Source: a virus | Strand: one strand, 5' to 3' | Virus record (IMG/VR): IMGVR_UViG_3300049846_001789 | Location: 1-51,717 of that record | Length of the DNA: 51,717 bases | In this document: one piece after another, positions 1,626-50,986 of the stretch | Layout: each line of letters starts with the position of its first letter | How positions within the stretch are numbered: the first letter of the stretch is position 1 | Notes under the pieces: generated by a model | Seen by the model: the letters and a program-made list of their open reading frames with translations, nothing else | Told to the model about the DNA's origin: nothing | The model's database searches: none | Translations under genes and position numbers: made by a program

Positions 1626-3143
1626 TTAGCGGAGCTTAGTGCTCTCGCTTTTAGCGCCGCTGATGTTGAATGGAATCGCTGTGGCTAGCGGCGCCAGCGA
1701 AGGAGCTGGTCCCACAACTCCGACAGCCGGCGTTGGGATAGGGTGCACGTGCGAAGCGATTAGCCCGTACATCTGATTGACCTGTTGAACCACGGATTGC
1801 AGCGCCAGCTCCAGTTCTTCGAACTTTGTCGCGTGGGACACGGGATCGATTCCCAGCTGAATCTGGTCTTCAATGCCTTCCAGCTGAATAGCCCCGAGTC
1901 CTGGGTTTAGCTTGATGGCCCCGCCGCGCGTTGATACGCGGTAGTTGCCTCGATTAGTCGAAACGCTCGCCTCACCGCCGTTCGTTTTCACGGCGTGAAC
2001 CTTCCCAGGATCCAGCACTTCTACGACATGGTTGCCCCGTGTGAAGTCGTTTCTATCCCCAGAGACGATGTCCTCGCTGTTGCCTGTTACGCTTTGACGT
2101 CGTTCACGACTGATCTGGCAGTAGTAGTCTTGTCCGACGTATAGGTTGTTGTCTGAGGCGACGGTCTCCGTACGCGTACCTTCGAACGTTTCGTTTACGC
2201 TGCCGCCTACGCGCCGTTGTACTCCGCCGGACACATGTTCATCCACATGCCCGTGGAACCGCACGGGATGCGTTTGGTTATCTCCGCTGCCTGAGTGCTG
2301 GCGGAAGCCGCCGGCCGCGAACAAATCAGCTTTCCCTTGTGGGTCTACGTGGAACTTGAATACGGCTTGGCCTTCGCGATTTGTGATTTCAAACTTCAGC
2401 ATGTTGCCGGTGTGGCCTACATCAAGCTTGATGGTGTATCGCTCTTCGTCCTGACCGGTCTGCGTTAGTTGATCGGTACCGCCGCGCCAGATGAACGAAG
2501 TTTTACCGTCTTCGTTTACGACGCGAGACTCCCCCATCCACGTGACCACGCGCATGATCCCGGCCACGACCTGAACTAGATCGTTATCGCCAAACGCTTG
2601 AACCTTCGCGAGCGGCGATCCGCGCAGCTGCGCGACCTTACCGTGTAGCGCGGCAACAGAGGCACCATCCGGGCCGATGCCGACGAAGTCTCCTGGGGTA
2701 ACGTCGCGAGGCTCCCCAGGACCGCGTGCGTTTGCGCCTAGGTTGCGACCCATCAGCGGATCATCGCCTCCATGCCCCGCGACGTCTGTGACGGAGATTG
2801 GGTCTTCATCGTCGACGTCTTCAGTTTCTGGAGGGAGCACCCCGATGATGTACGGCAACCCCAAACCGAAGGTGACAGCTACAATGGTCCCATTGGGCAG
2901 CACTGCGACATCGCCTAGATGCGACCGCAAGCGCGTCATTACCATCGTACGCCCAGAGTTCAGGTGTACGCGATACATCTGGCGACGCGCGTCGCTAGAC
3001 ATAATGGTACCGCGCTCAAGAATATTGGCGGTCGAGCGGAATGGGGTATTCCCCATCGCCACGTCAGCGCTGGCCGGCGCGAGTGGGTCAAGGGATGTTG
3101 GGGTTCGAGCCGAAGGACGCGGACGACGACGAGGGTCAACCAT
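1626..3143 (-). CDS. Baseplate spike / gpV-like protein
   Basis: A 505-residue protein with the layout of a phage baseplate puncturing spike. After a Pro/Arg-rich leader comes a segment of about 70 residues resembling the gpV/VgrG OB-fold (RVHLNSGRTMVMTRLRSHLG, then LPYIIGVLPP). A long beta-repetitive middle part with many His, Asn and Gly residues (about 270-420) is typical of a needle-like beta-helix. The C-terminus has SHVHPIPTPAVG, matching the His-x-His segment seen near the ends of many baseplate spikes. It would sit at the tip of the tail tube and pierce the host envelope. The ATG at 3143 has only a weak Shine-Dalgarno sequence, and starts at 3056 or 3002 are possible because the OB-like part begins after residue 48. 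A dispersed palindrome falls inside at 1987-1999. Confidence 0.7.
   Translation of the reverse strand: MVDPRRRPRPSARTPTSLDPLAPASADVAMGNTPFRSTANILERGTIMSSDARRQMYRVHLNSGRTMVMTRLRSHLGDVAVLPNGTIVAVTFGLGLPYIIGVLPPETEDVDDEDPISVTDVAGHGGDDPLMGRNLGANARGPGEPRDVTPGDFVGIGPDGASVAALHGKVAQLRGSPLAKVQAFGDNDLVQVVAGIMRVVTWMGESRVVNEDGKTSFIWRGGTDQLTQTGQDEERYTIKLDVGHTGNMLKFEITNREGQAVFKFHVDPQGKADLFAAGGFRQHSGSGDNQTHPVRFHGHVDEHVSGGVQRRVGGSVNETFEGTRTETVASDNNLYVGQDYYCQISRERRQSVTGNSEDIVSGDRNDFTRGNHVVEVLDPGKVHAVKTNGGEASVSTNRGNYRVSTRGGAIKLNPGLGAIQLEGIEDQIQLGIDPVSHATKFEELELALQSVVQQVNQMYGLIASHVHPIPTPAVGVVGPAPSLAPLATAIPFNISGAKSESTKLR
1987..1999. promoter_or_regulatory. Dispersed palindrome TTCACGNCGTGAA, exact (centre G)
   Basis: Exact copy inside the baseplate spike gene. 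On the minus strand the site is read as codons for V-H-A-V-K. Member of the ParB/KorB-type site set described in the findings. Confidence 0.85.
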
Positions 3144-3158
3144 GACCCCAGAAGTCTA

Positions 3159-3947: not shown

Positions 3948-3964
3948 GGGTGCTTTCCTGAAGG

Positions 3965-4531
3965 TTAGTGCGATCCCGATGCTGGCGTTTGGGATTCGCG
4001 GCGCATTCGAGCAATGTCAGAGAGGGCCATCGCGGCCAACGCGGCGGCGTCCACTCCACTCGTCAGTCGTTCTTGCGGATTGGTTAGGGCCTCATGCCCC
4101 GCCATACCTGCGTAGAGGCCGTAGGCCCCCAGGTTTAAGGCTTTAGACGCTCGTGGTAGTCCCGCGTAGTCCAAGCCTTGAGACCCTAGCCAGGCGACGT
4201 ACGGTGAAGCGTGTAGCAGGGCGTGTCCAAGATCTGATCCAGTCTTGAGCTGGTAGCGCCCGAGACTTTCACGAAGTGAACCCGTCTTTTGCCCGAGCAT
4301 TCCGAGCGAAGGTCCGGCATTGGGCGACGTAACGGACTTGGACAAGTCCATGCCCGTCCGCGCCATCATGCCAGCGGTACCCGCCGCGCCGATAGGAATG
4401 CCGGCGGCGTAGCCCAAGCCGGCCTTTGCGGCAGTGGGTGCGACCTTTACTGCTCCACGAGCGAGCGCCCCCCAGAAGGCGGTCTTCTGGAAGTGCGTGC
4501 TCAGTAGATCGTCGTACAGGTAGCTCGGCAT
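3965..4531 (-). CDS. Small probable virion protein with Gly/Ala-rich core
   Basis: A 188-residue protein starting only a few bases after the sheath stop codon. After a short N-terminus carrying FQKTAFWGAL there is an Ala/Gly-rich helical stretch (about 25-60) able to associate with membranes or pack as helices, and more Ala/Gly-rich helices follow. The KTAFW element recalls the VKTASEKVAFW start of the 521-residue protein at 15617-17182, so it may belong to the same virion set. Function unknown. A one-mismatch copy of the dispersed palindrome lies at 4268-4280. Confidence 0.7.
   Translation of the reverse strand: MPSYLYDDLLSTHFQKTAFWGALARGAVKVAPTAAKAGLGYAAGIPIGAAGTAGMMARTGMDLSKSVTSPNAGPSLGMLGQKTGSLRESLGRYQLKTGSDLGHALLHASPYVAWLGSQGLDYAGLPRASKALNLGAYGLYAGMAGHEALTNPQERLTSGVDAAALAAMALSDIARMRRESQTPASGSH
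4268..4280. promoter_or_regulatory. Dispersed palindrome, one mismatch (TTCACGAAGTGAA)
   Basis: Differs from TTCACGNCGTGAA at one position (C to A). It lies inside the 188-residue gene and is read in a frame giving S-L-R-E-S rather than the common F-H-x-V-K. Confidence 0.5.
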
Positions 4532-4534
4532 GGA

Positions 4535-7795: not shown

Positions 7796-7808
7796 TTCAC
7801 GTCGTGAA
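7796..7808. promoter_or_regulatory. Dispersed palindrome, exact (centre T), in sheath promoter region
   Basis: Intergenic copy; symmetry extends to CTTCACG T CGTGAAG (7795-7809). It lies directly upstream of the candidate sheath promoter box, so it could act as an operator. Confidence 0.85.
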
Positions 7809-8536: not shown

Positions 8537-8538
8537 TG

Positions 8539-15616: not shown

Positions 15617-17182
15617 TCAGCGCTCTGCATTTTTCAGTTGCGACTTAATGGCGTGAGCATTGTCGCGAAAATACTTCAGCGAGGCCCGTTCCAATTCATT
15701 GGGTCGCATCGAGCGCACATAGGCGCCGTTCATACGTAGGCGGACCATAGGCTCGCCAAATTCGTTGACGCCCTCCACGCGATGTTGAATTTCACCATGG
15801 GGGATAGTGGCATCTACATCGATATCGTGATCCGGGTAGTAACCAGCATCGGGATCTTTTGGCCCTTTTTTTGACCCTAGTCCGAATAGCGCCAGCTTCG
15901 CTAGCTCTTTTGCGGACGCTGCCTTCTTTTGTCCGCCGCCGCCTACCGCGCCGAAACGCTGCTTGTACTTCTTCATGAACGCCTCAGCATGTTCGCTTTG
16001 CGCAAAGTGATGCTGAAGTTCCGGAGGCAGGTACGCGTGTCCCGCAGCGAAGTGCTCAGCTAGCTGATCTCGCATTTGGTCTAGCTGTTGAGCCAGCTGC
16101 GGCATTTGAACCTGCTGCGCCAGGAAGATCATGTTATCGATGGTCTTGTGCGCCTTATCGAGGCCGTCCAGAGCGCCATCGGCAATCTGCGGCTGCTCTC
16201 CGATTGCCTCGCCGCCTTGAGCAGCTGGATCAGTGCTTGGGGGTAGACCTTCGTCCCCACCTTCCAAAGACCCGGGAGGAGGCTGCGGCCCATCTGCGTT
16301 CATAGGCGGTTGACCGCCATTTTCAAGACCTTGCATGATGTCAGCCAGCTTGCTTTTCAGAGAAGCGTGCTTGGGCATCACCTTTTGGACCCGCTGCATG
16401 AAGGCCAGCCGATCCGTTGGATCAGTAAACACTGCCGACAACGCTTCCGGGAAGTGTCCGAGCCCCTGAGCAAAGTGCTCTTGCAGCTGGTCCTTCGCCG
16501 CCGCTACTGCTTGCTCGATGTCGGTATTCCCGCGTTGGGCCCCGAGGCTTTGGGCTACGTGTAGCATGGCGTCGTAGCCGCTTTGGCCACGACCTTTGCG
16601 CTTCGCGGCGTCCAGTGCTGCCTCAGCAGCATCCGTAGCCTTTCGAACTGTTTCTTTGGAGGCAAAATCGCCGTGGCTCTTCAGCATCTGTCCGCCCAGG
16701 GCGCCGATGGTAGCCCCCGGAAGCAGGCCCATCGCTGCTCCACGTAGGCGGTTGTCTTCATCCCGCCACGCACCTGCGCCTGCTCCTGTAGCCGCGCCCA
16801 GTAGGGCGCCGACCACTCGCGGATCCCTCATCGCGTTGGCCGACTTGACCATTGCCTTGAGATCTTCAATGGCGCTCTCAGCCACCCACTGCTGCATTAG
16901 CTGGGCCTCGTCTTCGGCGACTTGGCCCATAGCAGCCATTTTTTGGATGCCCTGCTCCACTACGTAGGCGCAGCCAAATGAGCTCGCAAACGCCTCCCTG
17001 ATTTCACGCGGCGCAGCGCCCATGCCGCTTTCCCACGCATCAGCCCATAGCTCGTATGCGACCTTTGTTAGGCCTACGGCCATACCTTGTGGGTCTCGGG
17101 CCGCGCGCATCTTGCACTGCTGCCAGAACGCCACCTTCTCTGAGGCGGTTTTCACGGAGTGAAAAGTCGGGAGGCGGGGCAT
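15617..17182 (-). CDS. Probable internal virion protein with glycine-zipper segment
   Basis: A 521-residue protein. The N-terminus has VKTASEKVAFWQQC and further K-x-A elements. Residues about 122-170 form a glycine-zipper-like hydrophobic stretch (VVGALLGAATGAGAGAW, then GLLPGATIGALGG) that could insert into membranes. A Pro/Gly-rich acidic linker (about 290-340) precedes a Gln-rich helix and a beta C-terminal part. The mix suits a protein carried in the head and released at infection. ATG at 17182 follows AGGAGC. A one-mismatch palindrome sits at its very start (17151-17163, codons for F7-K11). No enzyme signature. Confidence 0.65.
   Translation of the reverse strand: MPRLPTFHSVKTASEKVAFWQQCKMRAARDPQGMAVGLTKVAYELWADAWESGMGAAPREIREAFASSFGCAYVVEQGIQKMAAMGQVAEDEAQLMQQWVAESAIEDLKAMVKSANAMRDPRVVGALLGAATGAGAGAWRDEDNRLRGAAMGLLPGATIGALGGQMLKSHGDFASKETVRKATDAAEAALDAAKRKGRGQSGYDAMLHVAQSLGAQRGNTDIEQAVAAAKDQLQEHFAQGLGHFPEALSAVFTDPTDRLAFMQRVQKVMPKHASLKSKLADIMQGLENGGQPPMNADGPQPPPGSLEGGDEGLPPSTDPAAQGGEAIGEQPQIADGALDGLDKAHKTIDNMIFLAQQVQMPQLAQQLDQMRDQLAEHFAAGHAYLPPELQHHFAQSEHAEAFMKKYKQRFGAVGGGGQKKAASAKELAKLALFGLGSKKGPKDPDAGYYPDHDIDVDATIPHGEIQHRVEGVNEFGEPMVRLRMNGAYVRSMRPNELERASLKYFRDNAHAIKSQLKNAER
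17151..17163. promoter_or_regulatory. Dispersed palindrome, one mismatch (TTCACGGAGTGAA)
   Basis: Lies in the first codons of the 521-residue gene, encoding F-H-S-V-K. The 15-mer TTTCACGGAGTGAAA differs from the full consensus at one base. Confidence 0.6.
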
Positions 17183-19362: not shown

Positions 19363-20073
19363 TTATTCAGTTACGAGATCGTCAGGCTTGATATCAAGCT
19401 CTTCGAGCGTCTTTGTAGTCGATCGAACTTCAAGCGCGATACGTAGCTCGTTAGCTGCATCCCTGGCGTGCTGAGCTTCGCGCGAACCGTCGCCGAGCAT
19501 CTTCGCAACACGCACAGCGGATTCGCCCCACTTGAGCGCCTCTTTTGCAGTGTCTGCGGTGACACTGTAGCCCCGGTGGCTCAGGAATTTGCTCCACATG
19601 TCCGCCATGGCCCCGTGCATGACGTCTTCAGGGTCCATCCTCGGCCGCGCGCCGATCTGATAGCGACTCAGGAGCTCTTCAGCGCCGCGTTCAATGGCGA
19701 CCTCGTACACTTTTTTCAGTTCATCCGCGCATTGCACTTGTCGAACGTAACGGGCCTTCGCCAAGTTGTGCGGGAAGACATTCACGTCAAAAAAGAAGCT
19801 GACGTACGCGCGGTAGATTGGCTCCGGCATTCCTAGCGCCGCTGCGACAGACTCTGGATTAGCGCCGCTCAGCGCCAGAGCGTTGATGATGTGGCGGTAT
19901 TCTTGATCCTGATAGATGTCGTAGGCGCTCGCCAGCTCGGGCATGGCGGATTCGCCGTTCTTCACGAGGTGAAAGAAGGCGATCTCCATCGAGTCGTCGA
20001 GCGTAACTTGTTCGCCATCCTCAATAGCGGTCAAGATGCGCCGGGCGCGATAGTCGGGCGGCTGTGGAGCCAT
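19363..20073 (-). CDS. Unidentified helical protein with HTH-like segment
   Basis: A 236-residue protein from ATG 20073, eight bases past the upstream stop. A TTG at 20100 would extend it by nine residues, and neither start has a clear ribosome site. All-helical and acidic. The stretch INALALSGANPESVAAALGMPEPIYRAY reads like a helix-turn-helix (helix, tight turn, helix), as in small terminase or packaging proteins, but there is no large terminase gene beside it, so that role is only a possibility. A one-mismatch palindrome lies at 19961-19973. Confidence 0.6.
   Translation of the reverse strand: MAPQPPDYRARRILTAIEDGEQVTLDDSMEIAFFHLVKNGESAMPELASAYDIYQDQEYRHIINALALSGANPESVAAALGMPEPIYRAYVSFFFDVNVFPHNLAKARYVRQVQCADELKKVYEVAIERGAEELLSRYQIGARPRMDPEDVMHGAMADMWSKFLSHRGYSVTADTAKEALKWGESAVRVAKMLGDGSREAQHARDAANELRIALEVRSTTKTLEELDIKPDDLVTE
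19961..19973. promoter_or_regulatory. Dispersed palindrome, one mismatch (TTCACGAGGTGAA)
   Basis: Inside the 236-residue gene, encoding F-H-L-V-K on the minus strand. One base differs from the consensus (C to G). Confidence 0.55.
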
Positions 20074-22630: not shown

Positions 22631-22650
22631 CGTTACTCTCCTGAAAAGAC

Positions 22651-22683
22651 GAACGCCCATGGCTAGTATAGCCACGGGCGTTC
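22651..22683 (-). terminator. Intrinsic terminator after the 644-residue gene
   Basis: Positions 22651-22664 (GAACGCCCATGGCT) pair with 22670-22683, 13 of 14 positions, around a five-base loop. On the minus strand the stem is followed by GTCTTTTCAGG. It separates the 644-residue gene from the 849-residue gene. The stem end overlaps the dispersed palindrome at 22681-22693, and the loop side carries a TATACT hexamer. Confidence 0.75.
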
Positions 22684-22693
22684 ACGGCGTGAA
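22681..22693. promoter_or_regulatory. Dispersed palindrome, exact (centre G), at a terminator
   Basis: Intergenic copy overlapping the last three bases of the terminator stem and lying about 10 bases upstream (minus direction) of a TATACT hexamer (22665-22670) that could serve the 849-residue gene. It would cover the -35 region of such a promoter. Confidence 0.85.
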
Positions 22694-31600: not shown

Positions 31601-33157
31601 ACGCTCCAGTAGGGGGAGGGCTTGGGTGCCCATCTTGCTTCCCATGATGGCCCGGTTCCCTTGGATGTTGTGAATCATCGGGATCAGGCTTGTGGCGGGA
31701 GAGTATTGATGGGAGACGTGCGTGAGCTGGTGCGTTACCCGGGAACCAGGGACGGTCTGCACTTCCCCATTCACAAAGGCTTTGACGGCGTTGCTCTTGA
31801 GGTCTTGATTCGGGAAGGCCACGACGTAGCGCATCAAGTCGCCGGCCTTTAGAAAGACGTCCTTCCCGCTTTTCACGTCGTGAACCGGCGTGTAGAGGTT
31901 CCCCTTGTCATCCCGATGCGCCATGATGGTCGCCCGAATGTCGACCCCTGCGTGGCCGCTTTCTGGGGTGCGGATCGGGTCCAACGACCCAAAGTGCGTC
32001 GAGTGCGTCATGCGCGCGCTCAGCGGGATCGCGCGATCACTCGCGATACCGCCTTCACCGAGCGACGTGACTTTTACGGCGTGATCAAGCAGCTCGATGG
32101 GATTGATGCCACTGGGTACAGCCGTGAGCGTGGACGTAGTGACGAACTTCCGCACGGAGTCCGAGAAAGGAGCTGGCCGCAGCGCCTCACGAATGGAGGT
32201 CTTTCCAGTCAAGGCCATCTTTGCCTTGGGGGCCCAGGCGCGAGCGGTCAGGCGAATACGCTCTGCTAGGAAGTCATCCACCGAGTGGAACGTCTTGAAC
32301 GCCAGTGAATCCGTATCATCCACGGGGGTCTGGCCCTTGTGGACTGCAAGGATCTTCTTTGCGGCATCGAGCAAGGCCGTAGGTGTGACCTTGTCGTGGT
32401 CCTTCCCCAACGTGTGAGCCGTTACGTCACGATCCAACGTGGTCATGTCGTAACGCTTTTGCACCACCTGTGCTTTTGCTGTGTGCTCCAGCTTTGGATT
32501 AACCAACGCGGGATGCTCCAGCTTGGTGTATAGCTTGTTGATGGCGCTCTCAATCTGATGCCCGTGCTCAGCTTGATTGGCCTTAGCGACGCCTTCCCCA
32601 AGGTGATGCGCGATTGCGTCGTGTGTAACGCCAAGGCCACGTAGCACTGGGTACAGGGGGATGTTGCTAGCCCCGTACTGTAGGTGAAACGTACCCTTCT
32701 TTTCGTTGAACCCGAGGTCGAAGTTCTTACCTCGCCCCAAGTTGAACGTCGTACGAAGTTCACCGTTTTCCGCCCGTTCGGTGTACACACCGGGCTTACG
32801 CCGAAGCTGATTGGCGAACTGGTACTCATTGCCGTCAGCGATGACGGTGTGTCGGTCCGTCAGATACGGGATGTGGACGAGCGTGTAGTCCTTGGCCGTA
32901 TCGATGACCTTACCGTCAGCGCCTTTCAGGACAAGCGTGCCCTTTACAGCCGTTTGAAGCGAGGAGCCGCTTAGCAGCGCCCGCTTTTGCTCTTCTGAGG
33001 AGTAGTCCCGTCCGTGTACGCGTACATCGGTAACCTCAAGCGTTCGACCCTTGAGATCCAATGGGAAGACAGCATGCAGCGCCCCCGTAACTTTTTCGTG
33101 AATCTTTCCTCGAAGCGTCTCCGCATCGGTCAGCACGGAGGTTAGCGGCTGCGTCAT
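28649..33157 (-). CDS. RNA polymerase beta subunit fused to N-terminal beta-prime
   Basis: A 1502-residue protein joining two RNAP subunits. Residues 1 to about 960 are a full beta subunit: PYLTDRHTVIADGNEYQFANQL (97-118), THSTHFGSLDPIRTPESG (384-401), GDKLAGRFGNKGVVAKI (783-799), GRPLDLILTSAGVVSRINPAQ (811-831) and GLGKMEYDALVAHGARNILQ (937-956). Residues from about 1000 are beta-prime: a start resembling the N-terminal lobe, HIELHEPIPH (1061-1070), VPVIPPVFRPILP (1157-1169), NRAPTLHRW (1337-1345) and the catalytic NLDFDGD with Asp1373, 1375 and 1377. The N-terminal beta-prime zinc ribbon seems lost between GGLFDP and HIEL. It ends soon after QTRNKILAF, before the bridge helix. The frame is intact, so this is a true fusion. 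An inverted repeat adjoins the start and no Shine-Dalgarno is visible. Confidence 0.95.
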   Translation of the reverse strand: MTQPLTSVLTDAETLRGKIHEKVTGALHAVFPLDLKGRTLEVTDVRVHGRDYSSEEQKRALLSGSSLQTAVKGTLVLKGADGKVIDTAKDYTLVHIPYLTDRHTVIADGNEYQFANQLRRKPGVYTERAENGELRTTFNLGRGKNFDLGFNEKKGTFHLQYGASNIPLYPVLRGLGVTHDAIAHHLGEGVAKANQAEHGHQIESAINKLYTKLEHPALVNPKLEHTAKAQVVQKRYDMTTLDRDVTAHTLGKDHDKVTPTALLDAAKKILAVHKGQTPVDDTDSLAFKTFHSVDDFLAERIRLTARAWAPKAKMALTGKTSIREALRPAPFSDSVRKFVTTSTLTAVPSGINPIELLDHAVKVTSLGEGGIASDRAIPLSARMTHSTHFGSLDPIRTPESGHAGVDIRATIMAHRDDKGNLYTPVHDVKSGKDVFLKAGDLMRYVVAFPNQDLKSNAVKAFVNGEVQTVPGSRVTHQLTHVSHQYSPATSLIPMIHNIQGNRAIMGSKMGTQALPLLEREAPYVQVKSHLPGDVSFEAIYGHMTVPVAPVSGKVKKIEGGYIWIEPHKEKQAEKTAAASDAKLVKVPYENHFPFPSKTYLHHDIQVKPGDKVEAGQRLADSNFTRNGVMALGKNLLVGYMPYHGLNSNDAVVISEGCAKKLTSEHMYREVYPLNSGIELSREKHKAYYGNKYSAQQYAKLDDAGVIKAGSRVDPKDPLIVGLTKTQIQGADLMLGRIAKSLTKPYREVVLQWEHGTPGEVVEVFRAANQIAILVKTHEQMNVGDKLAGRFGNKGVVAKIVPDHEMIQDEKGRPLDLILTSAGVVSRINPAQIIETAVGKVVEKTGKPILYDNGEDKNAVTWAKELLKAHNIKDKETVYDPVTKRKITGPDNKGVLVGRQFIYKLFKSTDTNFAGHGVGPYDVNEQPLKTGGDESAKGLGKMEYDALVAHGARNILQEAATVKSQKNDEFWRAIQLGAPLPTPKPTFAFNKFTAMLEGSGIKVDKRGSKFKLLPMTDKGVLERSRGAIDNKKTLIAKNLRPESGGLFDPIKTGGPQGTLFAHIELHEPIPHPVFIDPVRRLLGLSQKDFDAKLQSHGGAWFKQELAKIDLDRKLVDLRAKMARASGPELDDTIKQIKYLEALKKEKLSPADAYIMSKVPVIPPVFRPILPEKRDPSQLMISDANKLYGHLIDTNDVHKNTALESDLGKHRQMVFNAVGAVFGVNDPDDEKLKKQEVKGFLQNIAGVGTPKGGFFQRKLMRRTQDVSGRGTAVPDVNLNMDEVGIPEQMLWQMFDKLIVARLVRQGYGALQARELVDKKAPVAREAMLAETKARPVLINRAPTLHRWSIIAANAIPVAGKTVRVNPFIEKGMNLDFDGDTLQIHGPIQPGAVEDAKRMTLSNLLMSDQTRNKILAFPQHESIIGVTLASKAANTGAATHHFQTRDEALAAWRSGKLKLTDTITIANEKRADFQDEAPEASSLSSEDALFFCPAENVIGHEGSSS
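31872..31884. promoter_or_regulatory. Dispersed palindrome, exact (centre T)
   Basis: Inside the RNAP fusion gene; codons for V-H-D-V-K around residues 425-429 of the beta part. Context TTTCACGTCGTGAAC (31871-31885). Confidence 0.85.
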
Positions 33158-33463: not shown

Positions 33464-33476
33464 TTCACGCCGTGAA
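33464..33476. promoter_or_regulatory. Dispersed palindrome, exact (centre C), between convergent genes
   Basis: Sits in the 23-base gap between the stop of the plus-strand 82-residue gene and the stop of the minus-strand 148-residue gene, a place with no promoter function to serve. This argues that the site set is not purely promoter-linked. Confidence 0.85.
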
Positions 33477-38893: not shown

Positions 38894-38906
38894 TTCACGG
38901 CGTGAA
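38894..38906. promoter_or_regulatory. Dispersed palindrome, exact, over the parB operon promoter
   Basis: Perfect 15-mer TTTCACGGCGTGAAA (38893-38907) in the intergenic gap. It covers the place of a -35 element for the TGATACTAT extended -10 box at 38912-38920, 21 bases before the ATG of the first gene of the parB operon. Best candidate for an autoregulatory operator. Confidence 0.9.
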
Positions 38907-38927: not shown

Positions 38928-39161
38928 ATGTCCACCAAATACGGGGTTGTCACAAATCCAGAGGAAGATGCGGTAGAAGGTGATGCTCGACAAAAAGCGG
39001 GCTCATTAAATGCGTCCGCTTTACGGCGTGAAGCTACCGTGGCACAACCGAACCGATGTCCAAGGTGTCAAAGCCTGCTCGACGTAAGCGCGTTCGATCC
39101 AGCGACCTCGCAGGGGTCGCGGATGTGCCCTTGTTGCGGCAGCGCGCCGTTCGAGCGCTAA
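38928..39161 (+). CDS. Small zinc-ribbon protein, first gene of parB operon
   Basis: A 77-residue protein from ATG 38928 (STKYGVVTNPEEDAVEGDA). A longer frame from 38835 would pass through the upstream nuclease gene and is rejected. The C-terminal half has CPRC and CPCC pairs 22 residues apart, a classic four-Cys zinc ribbon. No ribosome site; a -10-like box lies seven bases upstream, so it may be leaderless. An imperfect palindrome lies inside (39020-39032). Its 3' end overlaps the next gene by 106 bases in another frame. Confidence 0.6.
   Translation: MSTKYGVVTNPEEDAVEGDARQKAGSLNASALRREATVAQPNRCPRCQSLLDVSAFDPATSQGSRMCPCCGSAPFER
39020..39032. promoter_or_regulatory. Dispersed palindrome, one mismatch (TTTACGGCGTGAA)
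   Basis: Only 126 bases from the perfect copy at 38894, inside the first gene of the parB operon; read as A-L-R-R-E. The pair could allow cooperative or looped binding at this operon. Confidence 0.55.
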
Positions 39162-39421
39162 AGCGCGACTACGCTCACGTTTTTGCAGACCCGGTACTGC
39201 ACAAACGCATTTTGAATTTCCTGTACACCTGTTACTTAGCGTCCGCCCATCCTGAGCCCCGCCTAGCGCATGAGTTCTGGAGGGCGTACCGGCACTTTGT
39301 TGAGGGTCGATCGATCCTCGACTTCCCATTCACTCTCATTGACCGCGATCATGCGGTTAATCAGCTCCGCAAGATCTTGCGGGGCGATCCTCTAAACCTG
39401 GATCTGGATGACAATGACTGA
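39056..39421 (+). CDS. Unidentified small protein, second gene of parB operon
   Basis: A 121-residue basic protein (SKVSKPARRKRVRSSDLAG...). The part from about residue 32 onward (RALKRDYAHVFADPVLHKRILNFL) looks like a folded helical domain. The ATG at 39056 lies within the zinc-ribbon gene; a GTG at 39124 would shorten the overlap. Its 3' end overlaps the parB start by 14 bases. Co-transcription with parB suggests a partner role; no ParA ATPase motif is present in it. Confidence 0.55.
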   Translation: MSKVSKPARRKRVRSSDLAGVADVPLLRQRAVRALKRDYAHVFADPVLHKRILNFLYTCYLASAHPEPRLAHEFWRAYRHFVEGRSILDFPFTLIDRDHAVNQLRKILRGDPLNLDLDDND

Positions 39422-40484
39422 CATCGACACCACCACTGAGTCCAAGACTGCCAAGACCCCCAAGACCCCCAAGAAGGGGAAGACCGCCGCGTCGCCTGCG
39501 GATTCCGGAGCCGAGACGTTCCAGTACGAGTTTCTGGAGAGCACCAGTGACACGGCCAACGTGTCGCCGAAGGACCTGATCTTCCCGCCCTTCGACAGCC
39601 GTGCTGACAGCGCCAACGTCAAGCTGGACCCGAACTTCGCGGCCGACGTGAAGGTCAACGGCGTCCTTCAGCCGCCGCTCGTTACTCCCGTGCGCGACAA
39701 GACGACGGGAAAGACCGGGCTGATGATCGTCACGGGCCGCCAGCGCGTGCGCGCGGCCATCGAGGCCAACAACGCCAAGAACAAGACCGTGCTCGTCCAC
39801 GTCAAGACCATGACGTATCAGGACGCGCTGATCTACTGCGGCGTGGAGAACATCAAGCGCAAGAGCCTGACCTTCTGGGATCTGGCCTGCTACATGCGCT
39901 CTCTTCGCGACGAAGGGGGGTTCACCCAGACCTCCATTCGTGAGCGCCTCGGCGTCTCGGACGCGATGGTCTCGCAGTACCTCGCGGTCTTCGATCTCGA
40001 CGAGCGGGTTCAGAAGCTCGTTCGCAAGGGCGACCTGGAGCCGGGCACCAACACGAAGGTGCGTGCTCTGAAGTCCGTCACGGACGGTGACGAGCAGTAC
40101 GCCATCGCACTGAAGGCTGCCGAAGGTGGCTGGACGAGCGATGACATCGCGCAGTCGGTCGCCACGCTCATGGCCAAGAAGGCCATGGCGGAGAAGGCCG
40201 CGAAGGAGCGCGAAAAGGCCCGCAAGAGCGGCGAGGGCGGAAGCACGCGCGCGGCTGCGGACGAAGAGGAAGAGGGTCCCACGTTCGACCCCAAGAGCGT
40301 GGCGCCGATCAAGAAGGCGGACCTTCACGCGCTACTGGAGGCGGTCAACGAGCGCATCCAGCGTATGCGCGCGAAGGACGACATCGATCCCGAGAAGCTC
40401 GCGTACGAGCGTGGGCGTCTGGACGGGCTCAAGCAGGCGGGCGGGCTGAAGGCGCTGCCCAAGTCCATCGCTGGCGACGAGTGA
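39408..40484 (+). CDS. ParB/KorB-family DNA-binding protein
   Basis: A 358-residue ParB-type protein. The N-terminal ParB fold has NGVLQPPLVTPV, the CTP-binding box TGRQRVRA (about 110-116, like GERRxRA) and VENIKRKSLT (about 145-154, like ENxQRxxLxP). A helix-turn-helix follows (TQTSIRERLGVSDAMVSQYLAVFDL, about 173-198). After a Lys/Glu/Ala-rich linker is a C-terminal helical part suited to dimerising. ParB proteins bind palindromic sites and act as CTP switches that slide and spread; KorB is a member that also represses promoters. No ParA is seen in the window. Codons are GC3-rich like the capsid gene, suggesting abundance. It is the obvious candidate reader of the dispersed TTCACGNCGTGAA sites, one of which covers its own operon promoter. 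Confidence 0.85.
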   Translation: MTMTDIDTTTESKTAKTPKTPKKGKTAASPADSGAETFQYEFLESTSDTANVSPKDLIFPPFDSRADSANVKLDPNFAADVKVNGVLQPPLVTPVRDKTTGKTGLMIVTGRQRVRAAIEANNAKNKTVLVHVKTMTYQDALIYCGVENIKRKSLTFWDLACYMRSLRDEGGFTQTSIRERLGVSDAMVSQYLAVFDLDERVQKLVRKGDLEPGTNTKVRALKSVTDGDEQYAIALKAAEGGWTSDDIAQSVATLMAKKAMAEKAAKEREKARKSGEGGSTRAAADEEEEGPTFDPKSVAPIKKADLHALLEAVNERIQRMRAKDDIDPEKLAYERGRLDGLKQAGGLKALPKSIAGDE

Positions 40485-42598: not shown

Positions 42599-42611
42599 TT
42601 CACGGCGTGAA
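42599..42611. promoter_or_regulatory. Dispersed palindrome, exact (centre G), touching a ribosome site
   Basis: Lies between a terminator and the second nuclease gene. Its last base begins AGGAGGTT, the Shine-Dalgarno of ATG 42622, so a bound protein would sit on the leader of this gene. Confidence 0.85.
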
Positions 42612-43488: not shown

Positions 43489-46400
43489 ATGTCTCGTAGC
43501 AAGAAGGGCGGCCCGGCCGCTGAGATTCAAGTCGCCCAATCGTTCGGGGCGACTCTCTTCGAACGGCTACAGGTGCCCAAGCTACGTTTGCTGTTCGAGC
43601 AGCTTTTCCCTGAAAAGCGTATCGAGCAGCGCGGTGCGGGCACGTTGCAGCTGAATTGTATTTCCCCAACGCACCCGGATCACCGGCCGTCGTTGGTGGT
43701 CTATACAAATCTCAATCTGGCTATCTGCAAGTCGTGCGGCTTTCGTACGCGCAATCTGTTGGAGTTTTTGAACATTGGCTTGGGGTACAGCTACGCTGAG
43801 TCCCTAGTCAAGATCCACGAGCTCACCGGGCAGCGCCTCGTCAACGACAAGACCGCTAAGCAGCTCGATGCGCTCGACTTGCATCAACAAGCCACAAAAT
43901 TCTTCGGCATCACGTGCAACGAGTACCTGCGTTCGCTTGTGATGTACGCGCTTCAAGCGCAGCCAACGCCTGTAGAGGAAGCGCCGTACTACAACAACGC
44001 GCTTTTTCACTCCGTGAAGCCGGTCCTCGATTGGCTGTACAAAACGCGCAATCTCAATCCAGATCGAGTGCCGTACTTGCCCTACGGCGTCATGCCTTCG
44101 TCGGATCTGTTCAAGCGTATCGCGCTACAGCAGATCGATGACGAGGTTGGTAGGGCGTACGCCTCTGGCCGGGTTAGCGGGGCGCACTCAAAAGAGCGCC
44201 GAGAGCAGCTGATCGACAAGCTCATGGCGATGCACCGTGAGGTACCGGTCGAGTACATCAACGCAGTTACGTTTCATACTGGCTACTCGCCCACCGTGGC
44301 GGGTCGCATTCGCTGCCGGAAGGTCACGCGCTCTACGGGCACCGATCACAACTTTTGGGATATGCCTGGCTTTTCGGAGGTCGATCAGCTTGGCTATCTC
44401 GGCCTCTTCTTGCCGAGCGGTAACGCCCTTCGGCGCGATGATATCGACCGTACGCGCATCATCCTGGTGGAGAGTGAAATCAGCATGCTCGCGATGCAAG
44501 AGCATGTGATCGACGAGTCGATTCCTGACGTATTGGTTTTGGCGTCGTCTGGGTCGAACAACGACACGGACCTCATTTACGACGCAGGCTTCACTAACGT
44601 CGATACGCTCATGGACTACCCGGACCCGGTCCATGGTAAAGGGGAAGAGCAGACCAAGCTGAGGCTTCAAACAGCTACACGGGCCCAGGCGCGAGTCTTC
44701 GTAGGATGGACGCCCCTGCAAGGGGACCTACCGACGATCAAGGACCCAGACGAAGTCATTCAGAACCATGGTTGGAGACATCTGCGACGCTACGTCATCG
44801 ATGAAGCTGAGAAGTGGTTCATTCCTGCGGACGCGTGGGCCTCTGAGCGCGCAATCGAAGAGGGCGCGAAAGTCCCGGACAGCCAGATTTTGCAACGCCA
44901 AGCAAAGGCATGTGAGTTTGGCAAATGCGTTCGGCATCCTGCGCTTTTGGCGGCCTTTGTTACGCGGGTCTCAAGCGCGCTGAACATCCCGCAAGGCCCG
45001 CTCCGCGCCGCAATCGTTCAGCTGAAGGATGATGAAGCTGGGCTCATCGCGCGTATCGTGGAGACGTTGCGTAGCGATTTCGTGATCTTGTACAAAGATG
45101 ACACGTACCGTCAGGGTACCTTGCATCTGTTTCACAAGTCCGAGCGGCGCTACGTGACGTTGAACGTCAACGACGGTCCTGGGATCGTGTCGGCGTTGTC
45201 CAACGTGTACGGCGAGATGTATAGCTACTTCGTAGACCACATCGGCCTTCCTGTCCGCAAAGATGGGGAAGAGCTGGTCGAGTCGCGTGTTGCCATTCGC
45301 GACGGTCAGAAGTTCATCGCCGACTATCTGAAGATTGCGTTTCAAGCGATCTATCAGGGCGTGTTGACGTACGCCGAGTGCATTCCGTTGGGGTTGGGTA
45401 TCCACTATGAGCCAGACCCCGATAACGAGCGGGTTGCCATCATTCGAATCCACAATGGCAATCGGTGGTTTCGACTGACGGTAGACAGCGTCTCCGACAC
45501 GATTCAAGGCACAGAACTGGAAGGGCCCGTCGATGGCAAGTACATCTTCATGCCCGATAAGCAGCCTTGGTCTACCGCTCTGACCAGCCTCGATGCGATT
45601 CTGACTACGAATCGCGTGGAGGCCCCACGTCTTCAGGAGATCTTTCGAGACATCCAGAAGATGATTCAGGTGGGGTGGAAGTTCCAGTATCAGACGCAAG
45701 ACACAACGTTCATGGCCGCGTTGGTCTTCGTCCTCGCTGCCGGTGACGCGTTCGATACAAAGCTGATTGTCCGGCTCATCGGCGAGTCCAACTCCGGCAA
45801 ATCGACTTTGATGTCGCTGTACACGCGCGGCCAGTATCCAGTGCTTCAGCTGGTGGAGCACTCAGGGTACGGCACGAACTACACGAACGCCTCCTTGTAC
45901 TTGGAGTACGATCGTTCAGCGCTCACGATGGCGTTGGAGGAGGCCTCGTCTGACGCTGTCGTAGCGAACCATAAAACAAAGCAGCTGGAAGACATCAACG
46001 AGATGATCCGTCAGGTTGTCTTCGAGGGTGGCGCTTCCATCAAGCGGTTTGGCACCAGCGGTAAGATCACCCAGTACAACATCCGTACGAATGTGCTGAT
46101 GACCGCTGTAGGCGAGCCCCGCGACATTCAGGACGCTAACCGCAGCTACATCGTCGAGACCGTAAAGGAGGAGAGCCGTCGCGATCCTGTCATTACGATC
46201 TTGAAGCTGTTTACGCGAGAGCAGATCGCAGCGATGCGCCGGGACATCCAGCTTGGCCTGATTCGCTACCTGCCGCGATTGAGGGCGTATCAGAACGAGA
46301 TGTACCAGATGTTGAACGAGAAGCAGCTGGCGTCATTCCAAGCGCCGACTCGCTTCTTGCGCAACTTCGCGCCAATCGGAGCTGTGCTCAAGCTGATGGG

Positions 46401-46986: not shown

Positions 46987-47000
46987 CGTAAAGGGGAAGC

Positions 47001-50000
47001 ATGGCAACGATTACACTGACGGAGCCCCCAGCTCCGTTCAATTGTACTTTGTGCTCGCTGCCGCAATGGCAAGCTAAGGCTGGAGCCAGCTGCAACGACT
47101 GCCCGGCGTTCAAGGACACGCATTACCACCCTTACGATGAGGGCCCCGAAGGCGCTAATCTGATCGTGGTGGGTGACGTGCCCGCTCCGCCGCCTAGGCT
47201 GGCTCTGGTGGGCGGAACGGCGGTTCAAACCCCGCTCAGGGCGCACAACACGTTTGACGACACGGCGGGGCGCGTTGTCAAAACCGCAGTCCAACGGATT
47301 CTTTCACGGCGTGAATTCGCGCACGTTCAGGCGTATTACACCTACGCCGTTAAGTGCGCGGTTGAAAACCCTAACAAGAAGACGATCGTAGCGTGCGCGA
47401 CCAATCTGCGCGCCACTATTCATCGGATCTCAAAGCGCAGGCAAGAAGCTGGGCTGTTGGGGCCGTTGGTGGTCTTGGCGTGTGGCGTTCGGTCTTTGAA
47501 GGCGCTGGGTGTTTCTGCGACTAGTGAGGATGACGCGCTTAATCGCATCTTTGAGGATGTGGACGTGGCTGGTGTCAAAGTCACGGTAGTGTTTACGCGC
47601 TCGCTCACGGCGCAAGGGACCCAGGACGGCAAATTCAACACGTTGTTGTTTGACGTCGAGCGCGCCGCCAGGGTGGCGACGTCTACGCTGGTGAACGTAA
47701 AGCCGCGCGCAGAGATCGAAAAGGATTACGTCTATCCGAAGAGCTTGGACGAAGTCCGTAGCTTGGTGGATCACGTGATCAATTACGCCGAGGGTAACGT
47801 CGCGGCCAAGGACTGGAAGATCTCGTTCGACACCGAGACGAACACGCTGCACCCCAACTGGGATGGGACCAAGCTGCTGTCGGTCTCCTTTGCGTGGAGC
47901 GTGGGTAAGGCCGCGTCCGTCGCGCTGTGGCACCCCGGGAATGACATGTACGATCCTGCGGCGGCCTTCGAGGAGATCAAGCGCCTGCTCGGTAGTCGTA
48001 AGCCCGTCATCTGGTTCAACGGGAAGTACGACTATAAGGTCTTTTGGAAGCTTGGCTGGCCGCAGACAGACGTGGGTAATGTGTATTGGGATGGGCTGCT
48101 CGCCGAGCATGTGTTGGAGGAGGACAAGAAGAAGTTCTACTCCCTCAAGATGCTCACGAAGCAGTTCATTCCAGAGCTCGCGGGCTACGAAGACAAGTTG
48201 CAGGACATGTTGGAGGAGGACAATGAGAATACCGATGTAGAAACCCCTGTAGAAGTGGAGCAGGAGAACAAGGTTCTGAAGCTGCCCACCGCAGTAGCAA
48301 ACGCCTACAAGTTCGCTATTGAGGAGGGCGTCATCAAGAGCCCCAATTTCCAAGTGAAGACCTTGGAGAAGGCAATCGCAGCTACGTTGGGCAAAGACCC
48401 CGAGCTGGCGGATGCGTTGAAGATCTTGATCGCTGCAAAAAACGCCGGCGAGTTTCGAGCTACGCCTGAGAAGGCAAAGACGAAGAAGCCGGATACTGGA
48501 GGATTCGAGAAGATCCCACTCGATGAGCTCCTGTTCTATGGTTGCGTGGACGCCGATGCCACGCGTCGCATCGCCGTCATGCAAGTGCGACGGATGAGCG
48601 AAGAGGACGCTCGGGTTGAAAAAGCCCGAGCCGAAGTCGAGCTGATGCAAAAGCATTCGCGCGACCCACGTGACAAGCAATTTCCCGTTGACCGCCTTTG
48701 CAAGACGCCTAGGGCGCTGTTCGCTCTCGTGCAGAATGACTATCTGCCGCGTCAGAGGGAGCTGGCAAAGATCGAGTACAACGGCATGAAGGTGGACTTG
48801 AACTACCTCCAATGGGGTACTGAGTCCCTCAGCCAAACGATCGACCATACTCGCAAGCAGATCTACGAGCTTGCGGGCGGTGATGATTTCAAGTTGGGGT
48901 CATCGAAGCGCTTGGGTCAGCTGTTTTTCGGAGATGGGTATACGCACCCAGACCCGGAGCACGCTGAATCCCTAGCTAAGACCTACCCCGATTTGGTCAC
49001 GTATCGTAACGGCAAGATCAGCTACAAGCCGCAAGCTTACACAGCAAAGGGCGCCATTCAGACCAATGACTCGGTCTTGAAGGGGTTGGTGACCAAGTAC
49101 AAGTGCCCGCTGGCGAATCTGATCCTGGCGCACAAGAAGGCGGATAAAGGCAAAAACACCTTCTTCGCCAACATTGGGGCGCTCGCCACGTACTTCGGGG
49201 ATCAGAAGCTGCACGCAGGATACGGCTTGACCAGCACGTCTACTGGACGGCTCTCATCCGCTGTACGCGTAGGCGACGCGCGATTTAATGCACAGAACAT
49301 CCCGAAAGGGCTGATCGGTGCGATGAAGGATCTGCACGGCAAGCTGATTCTAAATGATGAGGGCTTGCCTGTATTCGAGGGCGTCAACTGCAAGCGGTTG
49401 TTCATTCCAGACGACCCCTCGTACGCGTTTGGTAACGCTGACGCCAAGGGCGCTGAGGTCAGCATCTACGCCGCGTATTCCAGGGACCCAGCCTTGATCG
49501 CGGCATTGAAGGACGGCCTCGACGCTCACTGCTACTTCGCCTCTGAGTGCCTCAACCCGACCCTGGTGGCTGCGGGTTTGACGGGCGAAGAGCGGCGCAT
49601 CGCCCTCGCAAAGGCCGGAATCGACGACGAGCACAGCTGGTCGTACGACGACTTTTACAAGGGCAAGGACGGCCTGCTCGCTGACAAGGCCTACGGTAAG
49701 CGGCTCAAGTCTCTACGTGACAACATCAAGCGCCTCGTCTTCGGGATGCTGTACGGCGCAGGTATCAAAAAGATCGCTGAGATTGCTGGCATCTCCTTGG
49801 AGTTTGCTAAGCAAATTCAGGCGCTGTTGTTCACGAAGTTCCCAACGATCCGTACGTTCATGGAACGAACGAAGTGGGAGCTGCGTACGTTCGGGTTGGT
49901 GGAGGCTTTTAATGGTCGGCGCCGGCGTTTTCTTATCGGCAAGGGCGCGCCTAGTGACCTGCGGGCACAGGCGGAGCGACGTGCCATCAACTTCAAGGTG

Positions 50001-50411
50001 CAGGGTACTAACTCGGACATTGTCTTGAGCGTGCTCTGCTGGATCGCCCCCATTATCGAGAACGATTTGCGCGGGCGGCTGTTGTTGACGGTACACGATT
50101 CGATTGGGTTCCAGGTCCCAAAGCAGTACGCGCATCAAGTACGCGACGTGTTTACGCAGTGCGGCACCAACCGTGTTGCGGAGGCATTTCCGTGGATGCC
50201 CGTACCATACCGTTGGGACGTGGAGCTGGGCGAGAGCTATGGGCAGGTCATGCCTGCGGAAGAGTATGTGAAGGGGCTTACATACATGCTTCCTGAGCCA
50301 GACCTTGACGGGTACACCGACGAGGAACGGATGGAGGACCTAAGAGATCCCGACGCATTTGAAATGCCCGAGCGCACGAAAGACCCAAATCAAGGAAGGA
50401 AGCGAGGATGA
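47001..50411 (+). CDS. Family A DNA polymerase with N-terminal UDG-like domain
   Basis: An 1136-residue replicative polymerase. Residues 1 to about 225 resemble family 4 uracil-DNA glycosylases: Cys15, Cys18, Cys119 and Cys132 fit the iron-sulfur ligands, with extra C31-x2-C34 and a LIVVGDVPAP strand, but the catalytic motifs are altered (no HPS), so activity is doubtful. The 3'-5' exonuclease follows: DTET (about 277), NGKYDYKVF (about 340) and YGCVDADAT (about 513), with an inserted charged segment between the last two. The polymerase has TSTGRLSS, motif A NADAKGAEV (about 812), motif B RDNIKRLVFGMLYG (about 906) and motif C TVHDS (about 1030). It starts 14 bases after the primase-helicase with AAGGGGAAGC. 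An exact palindrome lies at 47303. Confidence 0.9.
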   Translation: MATITLTEPPAPFNCTLCSLPQWQAKAGASCNDCPAFKDTHYHPYDEGPEGANLIVVGDVPAPPPRLALVGGTAVQTPLRAHNTFDDTAGRVVKTAVQRILSRREFAHVQAYYTYAVKCAVENPNKKTIVACATNLRATIHRISKRRQEAGLLGPLVVLACGVRSLKALGVSATSEDDALNRIFEDVDVAGVKVTVVFTRSLTAQGTQDGKFNTLLFDVERAARVATSTLVNVKPRAEIEKDYVYPKSLDEVRSLVDHVINYAEGNVAAKDWKISFDTETNTLHPNWDGTKLLSVSFAWSVGKAASVALWHPGNDMYDPAAAFEEIKRLLGSRKPVIWFNGKYDYKVFWKLGWPQTDVGNVYWDGLLAEHVLEEDKKKFYSLKMLTKQFIPELAGYEDKLQDMLEEDNENTDVETPVEVEQENKVLKLPTAVANAYKFAIEEGVIKSPNFQVKTLEKAIAATLGKDPELADALKILIAAKNAGEFRATPEKAKTKKPDTGGFEKIPLDELLFYGCVDADATRRIAVMQVRRMSEEDARVEKARAEVELMQKHSRDPRDKQFPVDRLCKTPRALFALVQNDYLPRQRELAKIEYNGMKVDLNYLQWGTESLSQTIDHTRKQIYELAGGDDFKLGSSKRLGQLFFGDGYTHPDPEHAESLAKTYPDLVTYRNGKISYKPQAYTAKGAIQTNDSVLKGLVTKYKCPLANLILAHKKADKGKNTFFANIGALATYFGDQKLHAGYGLTSTSTGRLSSAVRVGDARFNAQNIPKGLIGAMKDLHGKLILNDEGLPVFEGVNCKRLFIPDDPSYAFGNADAKGAEVSIYAAYSRDPALIAALKDGLDAHCYFASECLNPTLVAAGLTGEERRIALAKAGIDDEHSWSYDDFYKGKDGLLADKAYGKRLKSLRDNIKRLVFGMLYGAGIKKIAEIAGISLEFAKQIQALLFTKFPTIRTFMERTKWELRTFGLVEAFNGRRRRFLIGKGAPSDLRAQAERRAINFKVQGTNSDIVLSVLCWIAPIIENDLRGRLLLTVHDSIGFQVPKQYAHQVRDVFTQCGTNRVAEAFPWMPVPYRWDVELGESYGQVMPAEEYVKGLTYMLPEPDLDGYTDEERMEDLRDPDAFEMPERTKDPNQGRKRG
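47303..47315. promoter_or_regulatory. Dispersed palindrome, exact (centre G)
   Basis: Inside the UDG-like part of the polymerase gene, read in the L-S-R-R-E frame. Context TTTCACGGCGTGAAT (47302-47316). Confidence 0.85.
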
Positions 50412-50986
50412 GGCTTGCGCTGGTAGACGTGGAAACTACGGGATTGGATCCTAAGAAACATCGCGTATTGGAAGTCGCGATTGAAATTGTAGACGCTACG
50501 CCGAAAGGTATTCACGTCGTAAACACTCTCGAATTTCGGCACAACGTCAACCTAGCTGAGCCTTGTTGGGAGCCTGCGGCGCTGGCGGTCAACGGGTATC
50601 ACGAAGAACATCCAGATTGGAAGGGCGCGCCTAACGTACACGTGCCCGAGGATCAGGATGGGGTACGTTGGAACTGGGTCCACGTAGCGGAGCTTACCCA
50701 TACGCTACCTCTGTGCTCGCAGAACGTACCTTTTGATCGCGACTTCATGGCGGCTGAGATGGCACGCGTGGGGGTCAAGCCTACCTGGGCCCGGCGGTTC
50801 GTAGATCTCCAGAGCTTTTCGTTCATGGCCTGCCTGGAAACGGGCAGGGAGAAGTTTGCGCTTCACGATGTGTACAAGGCGCTTGGAGGCCCTGACCTTC
50901 AAGAGCACCGCGCGGTGGCCGACGTGGCCCGTGGAAAGTACCTGCTGGCGCATGCGCTTAAGCGGTATTTTCACGACGTGAAGTGA
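50408..50986 (+). CDS. DnaQ-like 3'-5' exonuclease
   Basis: A 192-residue DEDDh exonuclease. Exo I is LVDVETTGLD (about 5-14), Exo II is SQNVPFDRDFM (about 103-113) and Exo III is EHRAVADVARGKYL (about 168-181), with the H-x4-D spacing of DEDDh enzymes. It could proofread, process Okazaki ends or recycle DNA beside the polymerase, which already has its own exonuclease. Its ATG overlaps the polymerase TGA (ATGA), so the pair is co-translated. The last five codons (F-H-D-V-K) form an exact dispersed palindrome ending just before the stop, and a near match lies at 50511-50523. Confidence 0.85.
   Translation: MRLALVDVETTGLDPKKHRVLEVAIEIVDATPKGIHVVNTLEFRHNVNLAEPCWEPAALAVNGYHEEHPDWKGAPNVHVPEDQDGVRWNWVHVAELTHTLPLCSQNVPFDRDFMAAEMARVGVKPTWARRFVDLQSFSFMACLETGREKFALHDVYKALGGPDLQEHRAVADVARGKYLLAHALKRYFHDVK
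50511..50523. promoter_or_regulatory. Dispersed palindrome, one mismatch (TTCACGTCGTAAA)
   Basis: Inside the exonuclease gene, encoding I-H-V-V-N. One base differs (G to A). Weaker member of the set. Confidence 0.4.
50970..50982. promoter_or_regulatory. Dispersed palindrome, exact (centre A), at the end of the exonuclease gene
   Basis: Formed by the last codons of the exonuclease gene (F-H-D-V-K, then stop), 26 bases upstream of the first duplicated promoter element at 51009. It may influence that promoter. Confidence 0.85.

Follow-up and report, generated by a model that had tools for sequence, protein, structure and literature searches.

Dispersed palindromes with a 3-bp spacer accompany an orphan ParB-type protein in one clade of phages

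The virus record IMGVR_UViG_3300049846_001789 (IMG/VR), whose whole 51,717 bases are the window of this study, carries a short palindrome at many scattered places and encodes a ParB-type protein. We found that the palindromes are real sites, conserved at the DNA level and dispersed, and that they share one architecture of two inverted half-sites around a 3-bp spacer. The letters of the half-sites differ symmetrically between lineages, and an orphan ParB accompanies the sites in one clade of related phages. Judging from sequence comparison, we consider that the phage's own ParB-type CTP (cytidine triphosphate) clamp probably loads at the palindromes and would organise the phage DNA.

Palindromic sites in the window

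A sequence-only reading of the window had listed 14 exact copies of TTCACGNCGTGAA and six with one mismatch. All of these positions were correct, none of 100 dinucleotide shuffles contained an exact copy, and five further places with two mismatches are present. The same reading had placed 14 of 19 gaps within 2.0-3.6 kb, a count that held and that none of 200,000 uniform random sets of 20 points reached. The conserved core is TTCAC-N3-GTGAA, with 18 copies in the window, which refines the earlier 13-bp definition. When inverted repeats were searched de novo (half-sites of 4-6 bases, gaps of 0-10), TTCAC-3-GTGAA ranked top at a half-site of 5, with 18 copies against 0.09 expected. TTCAC/GTGAA pairs occurred 18 times at a spacer of 3 and never at any of the 12 other spacers in the range 0-12. 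The one-mismatch sites at 4268, 17151, 19961 and 44006 have both arms intact, their mismatch falling within the three central bases; those at 39020 and 50511 have one disrupted arm and probably do not belong to the family.

The 18 sites have a median gap of 2801 and a coefficient of variation (CV) of 0.26, and none of 50,000 uniform random sets was as even. When only the 14 exact sites are counted, much of this evenness is lost (CV 0.55, P 0.02; smallest gap 1592, P 7e-4). According to a hand-made gene model in which some starts were guessed, 13 of the 18 sites lie inside genes and five are intergenic.

Two other origins were considered for the sites. A peptide-level cause, suggested by the frame xHxVK of most coding copies, was rejected: five sites are intergenic, those at 4268, 36105 and 47303 are in another frame, and the third frame gives a stop. 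Position and symmetry also spoke against all sites being promoters or terminators, a reading that was rejected with no dedicated promoter or terminator scan made.

Conservation of the sites among relatives

Relatives were collected with an alignment of the RNA polymerase (RNAP) fusion protein of the window, by which 135 were found and 80 loci kept. Subsets of these loci served for the exact-site search (39), the HTH_ParB search (48), the pattern count in ParB-negative records (29) and a second ParB search (50); the two ParB searches together cover 77 of the 80, leaving out L047, L084 and L090. The records may be fragments, and short ones cannot show absence. No relatives were returned among viral contigs with the window ParB, the DNA polymerase or the 20081-22675 protein as query, or among phages by megablast of 20000-44000.

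The sequence-only reading had proposed scanning relatives for its palindrome. The same letters recur in few of them, and further relatives have the same architecture with other letters. TTCACGNCGTGAA is present in two of the 39 records, with 23 copies in a 130-kb relative (G027) and one in a 9-kb piece; L025, from outside the 39, has one. G027 contains 39 copies of TTCAC-3-GTGAA. At 12 of the 18 window sites, G027 has a site at the aligned place, in flanks that average 58% identity. If the ten fixed bases were kept only at the flank rate, 0.13 common sites would be expected, and the maximum in 2 million simulated values was 4. The central three bases of the common sites vary between the two genomes. 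An independent tblastx mapping, which covered 11 chosen pairs of nine genomes, gave 11 common sites among the 18 for this pair, 13 being alignable, and none at 124 shifted control positions. Six window sites are absent at the aligned G027 place, and G027 has 3 sites of its own among the 15 in its collinear part; two of these project to places some 0.4 and 1 kb away from window sites missing in G027.

A symmetric switch of letters can be followed at one place in the polymerase gene, homologous to window position 31872. There L025 also has TTCACGACGTGAA, nine loci (L014, L015, L016, L018, L020, L035, L054, L068 and L069) have TTTACGACGTAAA, and L019 has TTTACGATGTAAA; both arms differ together, and the encoded residue is H or Y. 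The remaining loci with that polymerase stretch have no site. L014-L016 are identical here, so the switch represents few independent events.

Within the same gene, G027 has an insert of about 1 kb (72859-73923, L107), possibly an intein; the palindrome copy inside it is among the sites peculiar to G027.

Table 1. Sites and genes of interest in the window; counterpart positions are those in G027.
Feature	Position	Strand	Evidence or remark
Site TTCACGGCGTGAA	1987..1999	.	exact; counterpart 106969
Site TTCACGAAGTGAA, centre variant	4268..4280	.	one mismatch; counterpart 104697, not recovered by tblastx mapping
Site TTCACGTCGTGAA, intergenic	7796..7808	.	exact; counterpart 101316
Site TTCACGGCGTGAA	9865..9877	.	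exact; counterpart 99250
Site TTCACGACGTGAA	12666..12678	.	exact; counterpart 96471
Site TTCACGGAGTGAA, centre variant	17151..17163	.	one mismatch; counterpart 90742
Site TTCACGAGGTGAA, centre variant	19961..19973	.	one mismatch; counterpart 87481
Site TTCACGGCGTGAA, intergenic	22681..22693	.	exact; no counterpart
Site TTCACGTCGTGAA	25305..25317	.	exact; counterpart 81716
Site TTCACGTCGTGAA	28580..28592	.	exact; counterpart 77702
Site TTCACGTCGTGAA (TTCACGACGTGAA on coding strand), inside RNAP fusion gene	31872..31884	.	exact; TTTACGACGTAAA at homologous place in nine loci
Site TTCACGCCGTGAA, intergenic	33464..33476	.	exact; no counterpart
Site TTCACGTCGTGAA	36105..36117	.	exact; counterpart 68744
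Site TTCACGGCGTGAA, intergenic	38894..38906	.	exact; none at that place in G027
Site TTCACGGCGTGAA, just upstream of ATG 42622 (start picked by eye)	42599..42611	.	exact; counterpart 63124
Site TTCACTCCGTGAA, centre variant	44006..44018	.	one mismatch; no counterpart
Site TTCACGGCGTGAA, inside DNA polymerase gene	47303..47315	.	exact; counterpart 58444
Site TTCACGACGTGAA	50970..50982	.	exact; no counterpart
Near match TTTACGGCGTGAA, one arm broken, doubtful	39020..39032	.	one mismatch
Near match TTCACGTCGTAAA, one arm broken, doubtful	50511..50523	.	one mismatch
Orphan ParB/Noc/KorB-type gene, 358 aa; GxxR and ENxxR, ParB helix-turn-helix, C-terminal helical part	39408..40484	(+)	Pfam, PHROG ParB-like, motifs, AF2/Foldseek
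RNAP beta and N-terminal beta' fusion	28649..33157	(-)	Pfam; marker for relative search and tree; context only

Half-site variants and spacing in other lineages

De novo searches in other relatives returned TTTAC-N3-GTAAA, TACGNCGTA and TAACCNGGTTA. TTAC-3-GTAA occurs in 24 copies in G008, 16 in G018, 13 in G012, 14 in G005, 12 each in G030 and G031, and 10 in G028 (read to base 60,000 of 60,052), while G002 has 12 copies of TACG-1-CGTA and G034 has 14 of TAACC-1-GGTTA. In each of the eleven genomes the half-site pairs peak at a 3-bp spacer; the peak is sharp for TAAC in G034 (16 at 3 bp, 0 elsewhere) and for TTAC in G008 (24 at 3 bp, at most 1 elsewhere). The sites are more evenly spaced than random sets in G027 (P 2e-5), G008 (0 of 50,000 random sets), G018 (7.6e-4), G002 (0.004), G005 (0.017) and G028 (0.045); these P values are per genome, with no correction for testing several genomes. 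G018 is nearly a copy of G008, with 16 of 16 sites in common, and the two do not count as independent.

The ParB-type protein and its link to the sites

The ParB-family gene that the sequence-only reading had placed at 39408-40484 was borne out, as its product matches HTH_ParB (PF17762) with 42 bits over a cut-off of 22.6. The match to ParB_N (PF02195) stays under its cut-off of 26.3 in the window protein (20.7 bits), and the ParB of G008 exceeds it (63.4). GRQRVR at residue 110 and ENIKR at 147 correspond to the ParB-CTPase motifs GxxR and ENxxR, and across an alignment of 11 ParBs G110, R113 and N148 are invariant and R151 nearly so. An AlphaFold2 (AF2) model built on this 11-sequence alignment has a mean predicted local distance difference test (pLDDT) score of 77, with residues 1-32 under 50, and its best fold matches in Foldseek are ParB, Noc and KorB. 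The motifs, together with the ParB and Noc matches, identify the N-terminal ParB-CTPase fold. The nucleotide may vary within such folds, some of which are reported to bind ATP or GTP (PMC12704722). The ParA-binding motif (L/F/I)G(K/R)G(L/F/I) was not found in the window ParB. The Pfam KorB domain (PF08535) gave no match in it either, and reached 16.5 bits in the G027 ParB, under the cut-off of 22.3.

In the alignment with Caulobacter ParB, using our own mapping of positions, the window ParB retains Q162 and R204 but not K171, R173 or N178. R173 contacts the outer G of parS in Caulobacter (PMC7383237); it aligns with D in the window ParB, and the outer G is conserved in only 2 of the 14 exact sites. 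This comparison was made by alignment alone.

HTH_ParB was detected in 13 of 48 records. A divergent ParB in G034, whose Pfam scores are under the cut-offs, was recovered with an E value of 3.9e-27 by a model built without it; the later match of G034 arose by construction, since G034 was a row of the alignment used in that search, so that only the former is independent. With the window included, 15 records are ParB-positive, and 11 of these show a clear family of spacer-3 palindromes. On the other side, 22 ParB-negative records of at least 85 kb contain 0-2 copies each of TTYACNNNGTRAA; a full de novo search was run in G019 and Salmonella phage Arash only, and the others were tested with the palindrome family's own pattern. 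All ParB-positive records fall in one 36-row clade of a quick polymerase tree of 83 rows (Shimodaira-Hasegawa approximate likelihood ratio test, SH-aLRT, 100). We also ranked the identity of ParB among the detected homologues of 40 queried window genes, undetected genes being unranked. In the relatives whose motif differs, ParB is the lowest of 20 detected genes in G002 (32% identity, tied with one other) and the lowest of 31 in G034 (23%). In G027, which has the same motif, it ranks 18th of 39 (61%).

The phage's own ParB-type protein is the likeliest reader of the sites, because ParB occurs in one polymerase clade and is the least conserved detected gene where the motif changed. It is rather improbable that some other DNA-binding protein of the phage reads them. 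Such a protein could lie unseen among the 26 of 30 window proteins without a PHROG match, and four of the 15 ParB-positive records show no clear motif, but ParB tracks both the clade and the motif changes, and the register of the site is that of a ParB-family operator. A sigma factor as reader is disfavoured, as a relative of it also occurs in Arash, which has no sites. That the phage makes use of a host protein, such as a host ParB, Noc or MatP-like protein, is very improbable. Host chromosomes do have dispersed ParB, Noc and MatP sites. However, the motif is not the same in phages with polymerases of 63-67% identity, and the canonical 12-bp parS core TTTCACGTGAAA is absent from all 17 phage genomes or records checked, host genomes themselves not having been searched.

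Proposed role of the sites

In the mechanism that we propose, a ParB dimer would bind the palindrome through its helix-turn-helix (HTH), close on CTP and slide off the site as a clamp, covering the DNA in the direction of the neighbouring site. With intervals of ~2.8 kb (window, G027) to 8 kb (G008), such clamps could reach most of the genome. The job of the system would likely be to organise, compact or mark replicating phage DNA in the manner of Noc or ParB, rather than plasmid partition, and KorB-like side effects on nearby promoters may occur. A wider proposal is that a ParA-free ParB clamp coats the whole phage chromosome from evenly spaced sites, and that its DNA specificity changed repeatedly in the clade, the protein and dozens of sites together; we hold this to be quite possible, yet put it forward tentatively.

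Several observations weigh against the organising role and against ParB as the reader. Four of the 15 ParB-positive records lack a clear motif, so the site is missing or faint in some relatives that keep parB, an outcome that the sequence-only reading had named as damaging: G010 and G014 have none, and G015 (6 at spacer 3 vs 0-2 at other spacers) and G016 (1) are weak. G010, G014 and G015 likewise give 0-2 copies of TTYACNNNGTRAA, as the ParB-negative records do. No ParB was found in L034 (117 kb), which lies inside the clade, while G055, outside it, has a weak 47-residue ParB match (E 3.9e-5) that was not counted as ParB. As ParB and the sites mark one clade, their joint presence amounts to little more than one event. 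ParB is also only slightly more diverged than other fast-evolving genes (32-36% in G002, 27-29% in G034).

The palindrome itself is not equally strong everywhere. The spacer-3 peak is weakest in G028 (10 vs up to 6), G031 (12 vs 5) and G002 (17 vs 8 for TAC), and the top de novo scores of these genomes (12.9, 20.6 and 19.1) do not exceed the 22.3 of the ParB-negative control Arash, whose own top palindromes are T-tract and terminator-like. These three therefore rest on the spacer peak and on kinship. The near-regular spread over the genome claimed by the sequence-only reading holds in the window, G027, G008 and G018; evenness did not exceed random in G012 (P 0.54), G030 (0.27), G031 (0.30) and G034 (0.19). 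Positions are hardly kept between distant pairs: G002, G005 and G030 each have one site in common with the window's 18 (control for G030, 2 of 55), G028 has none of 18, and G002 and G005 have 0 of 12 sites at common places. Finally, five of the 18 window sites are intergenic, compared with 2.1% of the DNA (P 2.8e-5), and the sites lean mildly to gene starts (P ~0.04), both of which would suit a regulatory role as well.

As to the ParB/KorB-like regulon or DNA-organising system of the sequence-only reading, the link to ParB/KorB is supported by clade co-occurrence, the symmetric motif switch, low ParB conservation and the predicted fold. The regulon is the weaker half, because 13 of the 18 sites are inside genes and the bias to gene starts is only mild. 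In a KorB-like regulon, ParB would read the sites as operators and repress or time phage genes from a distance, and the spread would serve the needs of a whole-genome regulator. The palindrome has the same 13-bp register as the KorB operator, and KorB, once loaded as a clamp at its 13-bp operator, slides to reach promoters as far as 1.5 kb from it (PMC11790492). The excess of intergenic sites points the same way, as do the five of 18 sites within 60 bp of a start codon (1.7 expected, P 0.03). On the other hand, some genic sites lie more than 1 kb from a start codon (1987, 31872), the spacing in the window, G027, G008 and G018 is more even than operators need, the intergenic excess may reflect coding constraint only, and the window ParB has no Pfam KorB match. 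Considering both sides, we find the regulon unlikely and favour a DNA-organising clamp system over it with moderate confidence.

An organising role is also preferred over partition because neither ParA nor integrase was found. ParA (PF13614) was absent from 19 records, 14 of them ParB-positive, with other ParA models not tried, and no ParA family was among the PHROG matches of the 40 window open reading frames scanned; integrase (PF00589) was absent from 14 records, with other recombinase families not tried. A partition system for a lysogen is thus unlikely, although the records may be fragments. The inverted-repeat (IR) sites of SopB in phage N15 are reportedly dispersed. A plasmid-prophage centromere of that kind, made of several separate parS sites, is the least probable of the explanations considered: the window and its relatives have 18-39 sites instead of four, besides the missing PF13614 and PF00589. 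SopB of N15 uses four IR sites (PMC7205306), and N15 resembles the present phages in having several ParB-type sites in a phage genome, but there they serve ParA-based partition of a linear plasmid-prophage.

The 138-kb record G014, ParB-positive and without the dispersed palindrome, has 16-bp tandem repeats of about 5-6 copies at both ends (L134 1-90 and the end of L140), which may represent a terminal repeat or else a centromere-like cluster. Its top palindrome was rejected as a dispersed site, being this end-located repeat.

Comparison with known systems

Noc sites are dispersed on the chromosome, and Noc has an N-terminal membrane-binding helix. The half-site TTCAC matches the five innermost bases of a chromosomal parS half, and the phage half-sites lie 3 bp further apart than those of parS. 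Noc with its NBS sites and chromosomal ParB-parS differ from the present system in belonging to a bacterial chromosome rather than a virus, and no ParA was found in the phage records. Like Noc, the phage ParB appears to have a ParB fold without the ParA-binding motif (PMC12704722).

KorB of RK2 has the 13-bp operator TTTAGCGGCTAAA (PMC5577506). Its OB system would share with the phage system a ParB-family CTP clamp, and it has an odd 13-bp palindrome with the register of TTTAGCGGCTAAA equal to that of TTTACGNCGTAAA, several scattered sites, and a place for KorB among the Foldseek matches. It differs in that the phage system has up to 39 sites in a phage genome, mostly inside genes, near-even in some lineages and with other letters, and does not reach the Pfam KorB threshold.

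The sequence-only reading knew of no described phage case. Our literature search gave no description of the present system among the matches listed, most subscription journals and bioRxiv preprints being outside its coverage; dispersed N3 palindromes beside a ParB-like protein have, however, been published for cluster O. These mycobacteriophages (Corndog, Firecracker) have more than 30 dispersed 17-bp inverted repeats with a 3-bp spacer and a protein with a ParB-like domain, and no parAB or integrase; the authors considered it doubtful that this protein acts in genome stability and assigned no function to the repeats (PMC4351075). The likeness to the phage sites thus extends to the missing parAB and integrase. 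In our recount of Firecracker (L203, L204), the 34 copies of TGTTCGG-N3-CCGAACA are spaced no more evenly than random (CV 1.02, P 0.70), and the ParB-like gp94 matches ParB_N and not HTH_ParB. The cluster O repeats are longer than the present sites and differ from them in letters and spacing. Cluster A mycobacteriophages carry up to ~30 dispersed stoperators of 13 bp, with motifs that diverge in step with their cognate repressors (PMC6550527). The stoperators are asymmetric, mostly in one orientation relative to transcription, and read by an immunity repressor, whereas the window site is palindromic.

Phage orphan ParBs have been surveyed as a class, in a survey whose accessible text does not use the word 'dispersed' (PMC12704722). 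Dispersed palindromes without a known reader have been noted in phages before; here such palindromes are tied to an orphan ParB by comparative data. These data make the function of orphan phage ParBs testable, and they provide naturally varied sites (TTCAC, TTTAC, TACG and TAACC half-sites at a fixed spacer) together with the ParB of each. They also suggest that a virus may organise its genome by clamp loading at intervals without ParA.

The window and its virus

The polymerase fusion shares 34-35% identity over 97% with that of Salmonella phage Arash and three Vibrio phages (181-188 kb), and Arash has homologues of the portal, protease-like and capsid genes in the same order as the window. 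The window is therefore probably only part of a larger genome, one belonging to the RNAP-encoding Caudovirales (mReC; PMC7481178). Like those phages it encodes beta and beta' subunits of RNAP. The polymerase is split at an unusual place: beta and the N-terminal part of beta' are fused, and the remaining C-terminal part of beta' is a separate gene at 25330-27135 (Pfam), a division common to Arash and Vibrio phage D69. A sigma-like factor, a DNA polymerase, a helicase and nucleases are also encoded. The 30 window proteins of which 26 had no PHROG match are those of the late half and the beginning of the early half. A bacterial host could not be assigned, as the best full-length matches among 16 loci in bacterial assemblies reach 37%. 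At the right end of the window (50986-51717), where no gene was assignable, there is a run of ten G at ~51000.

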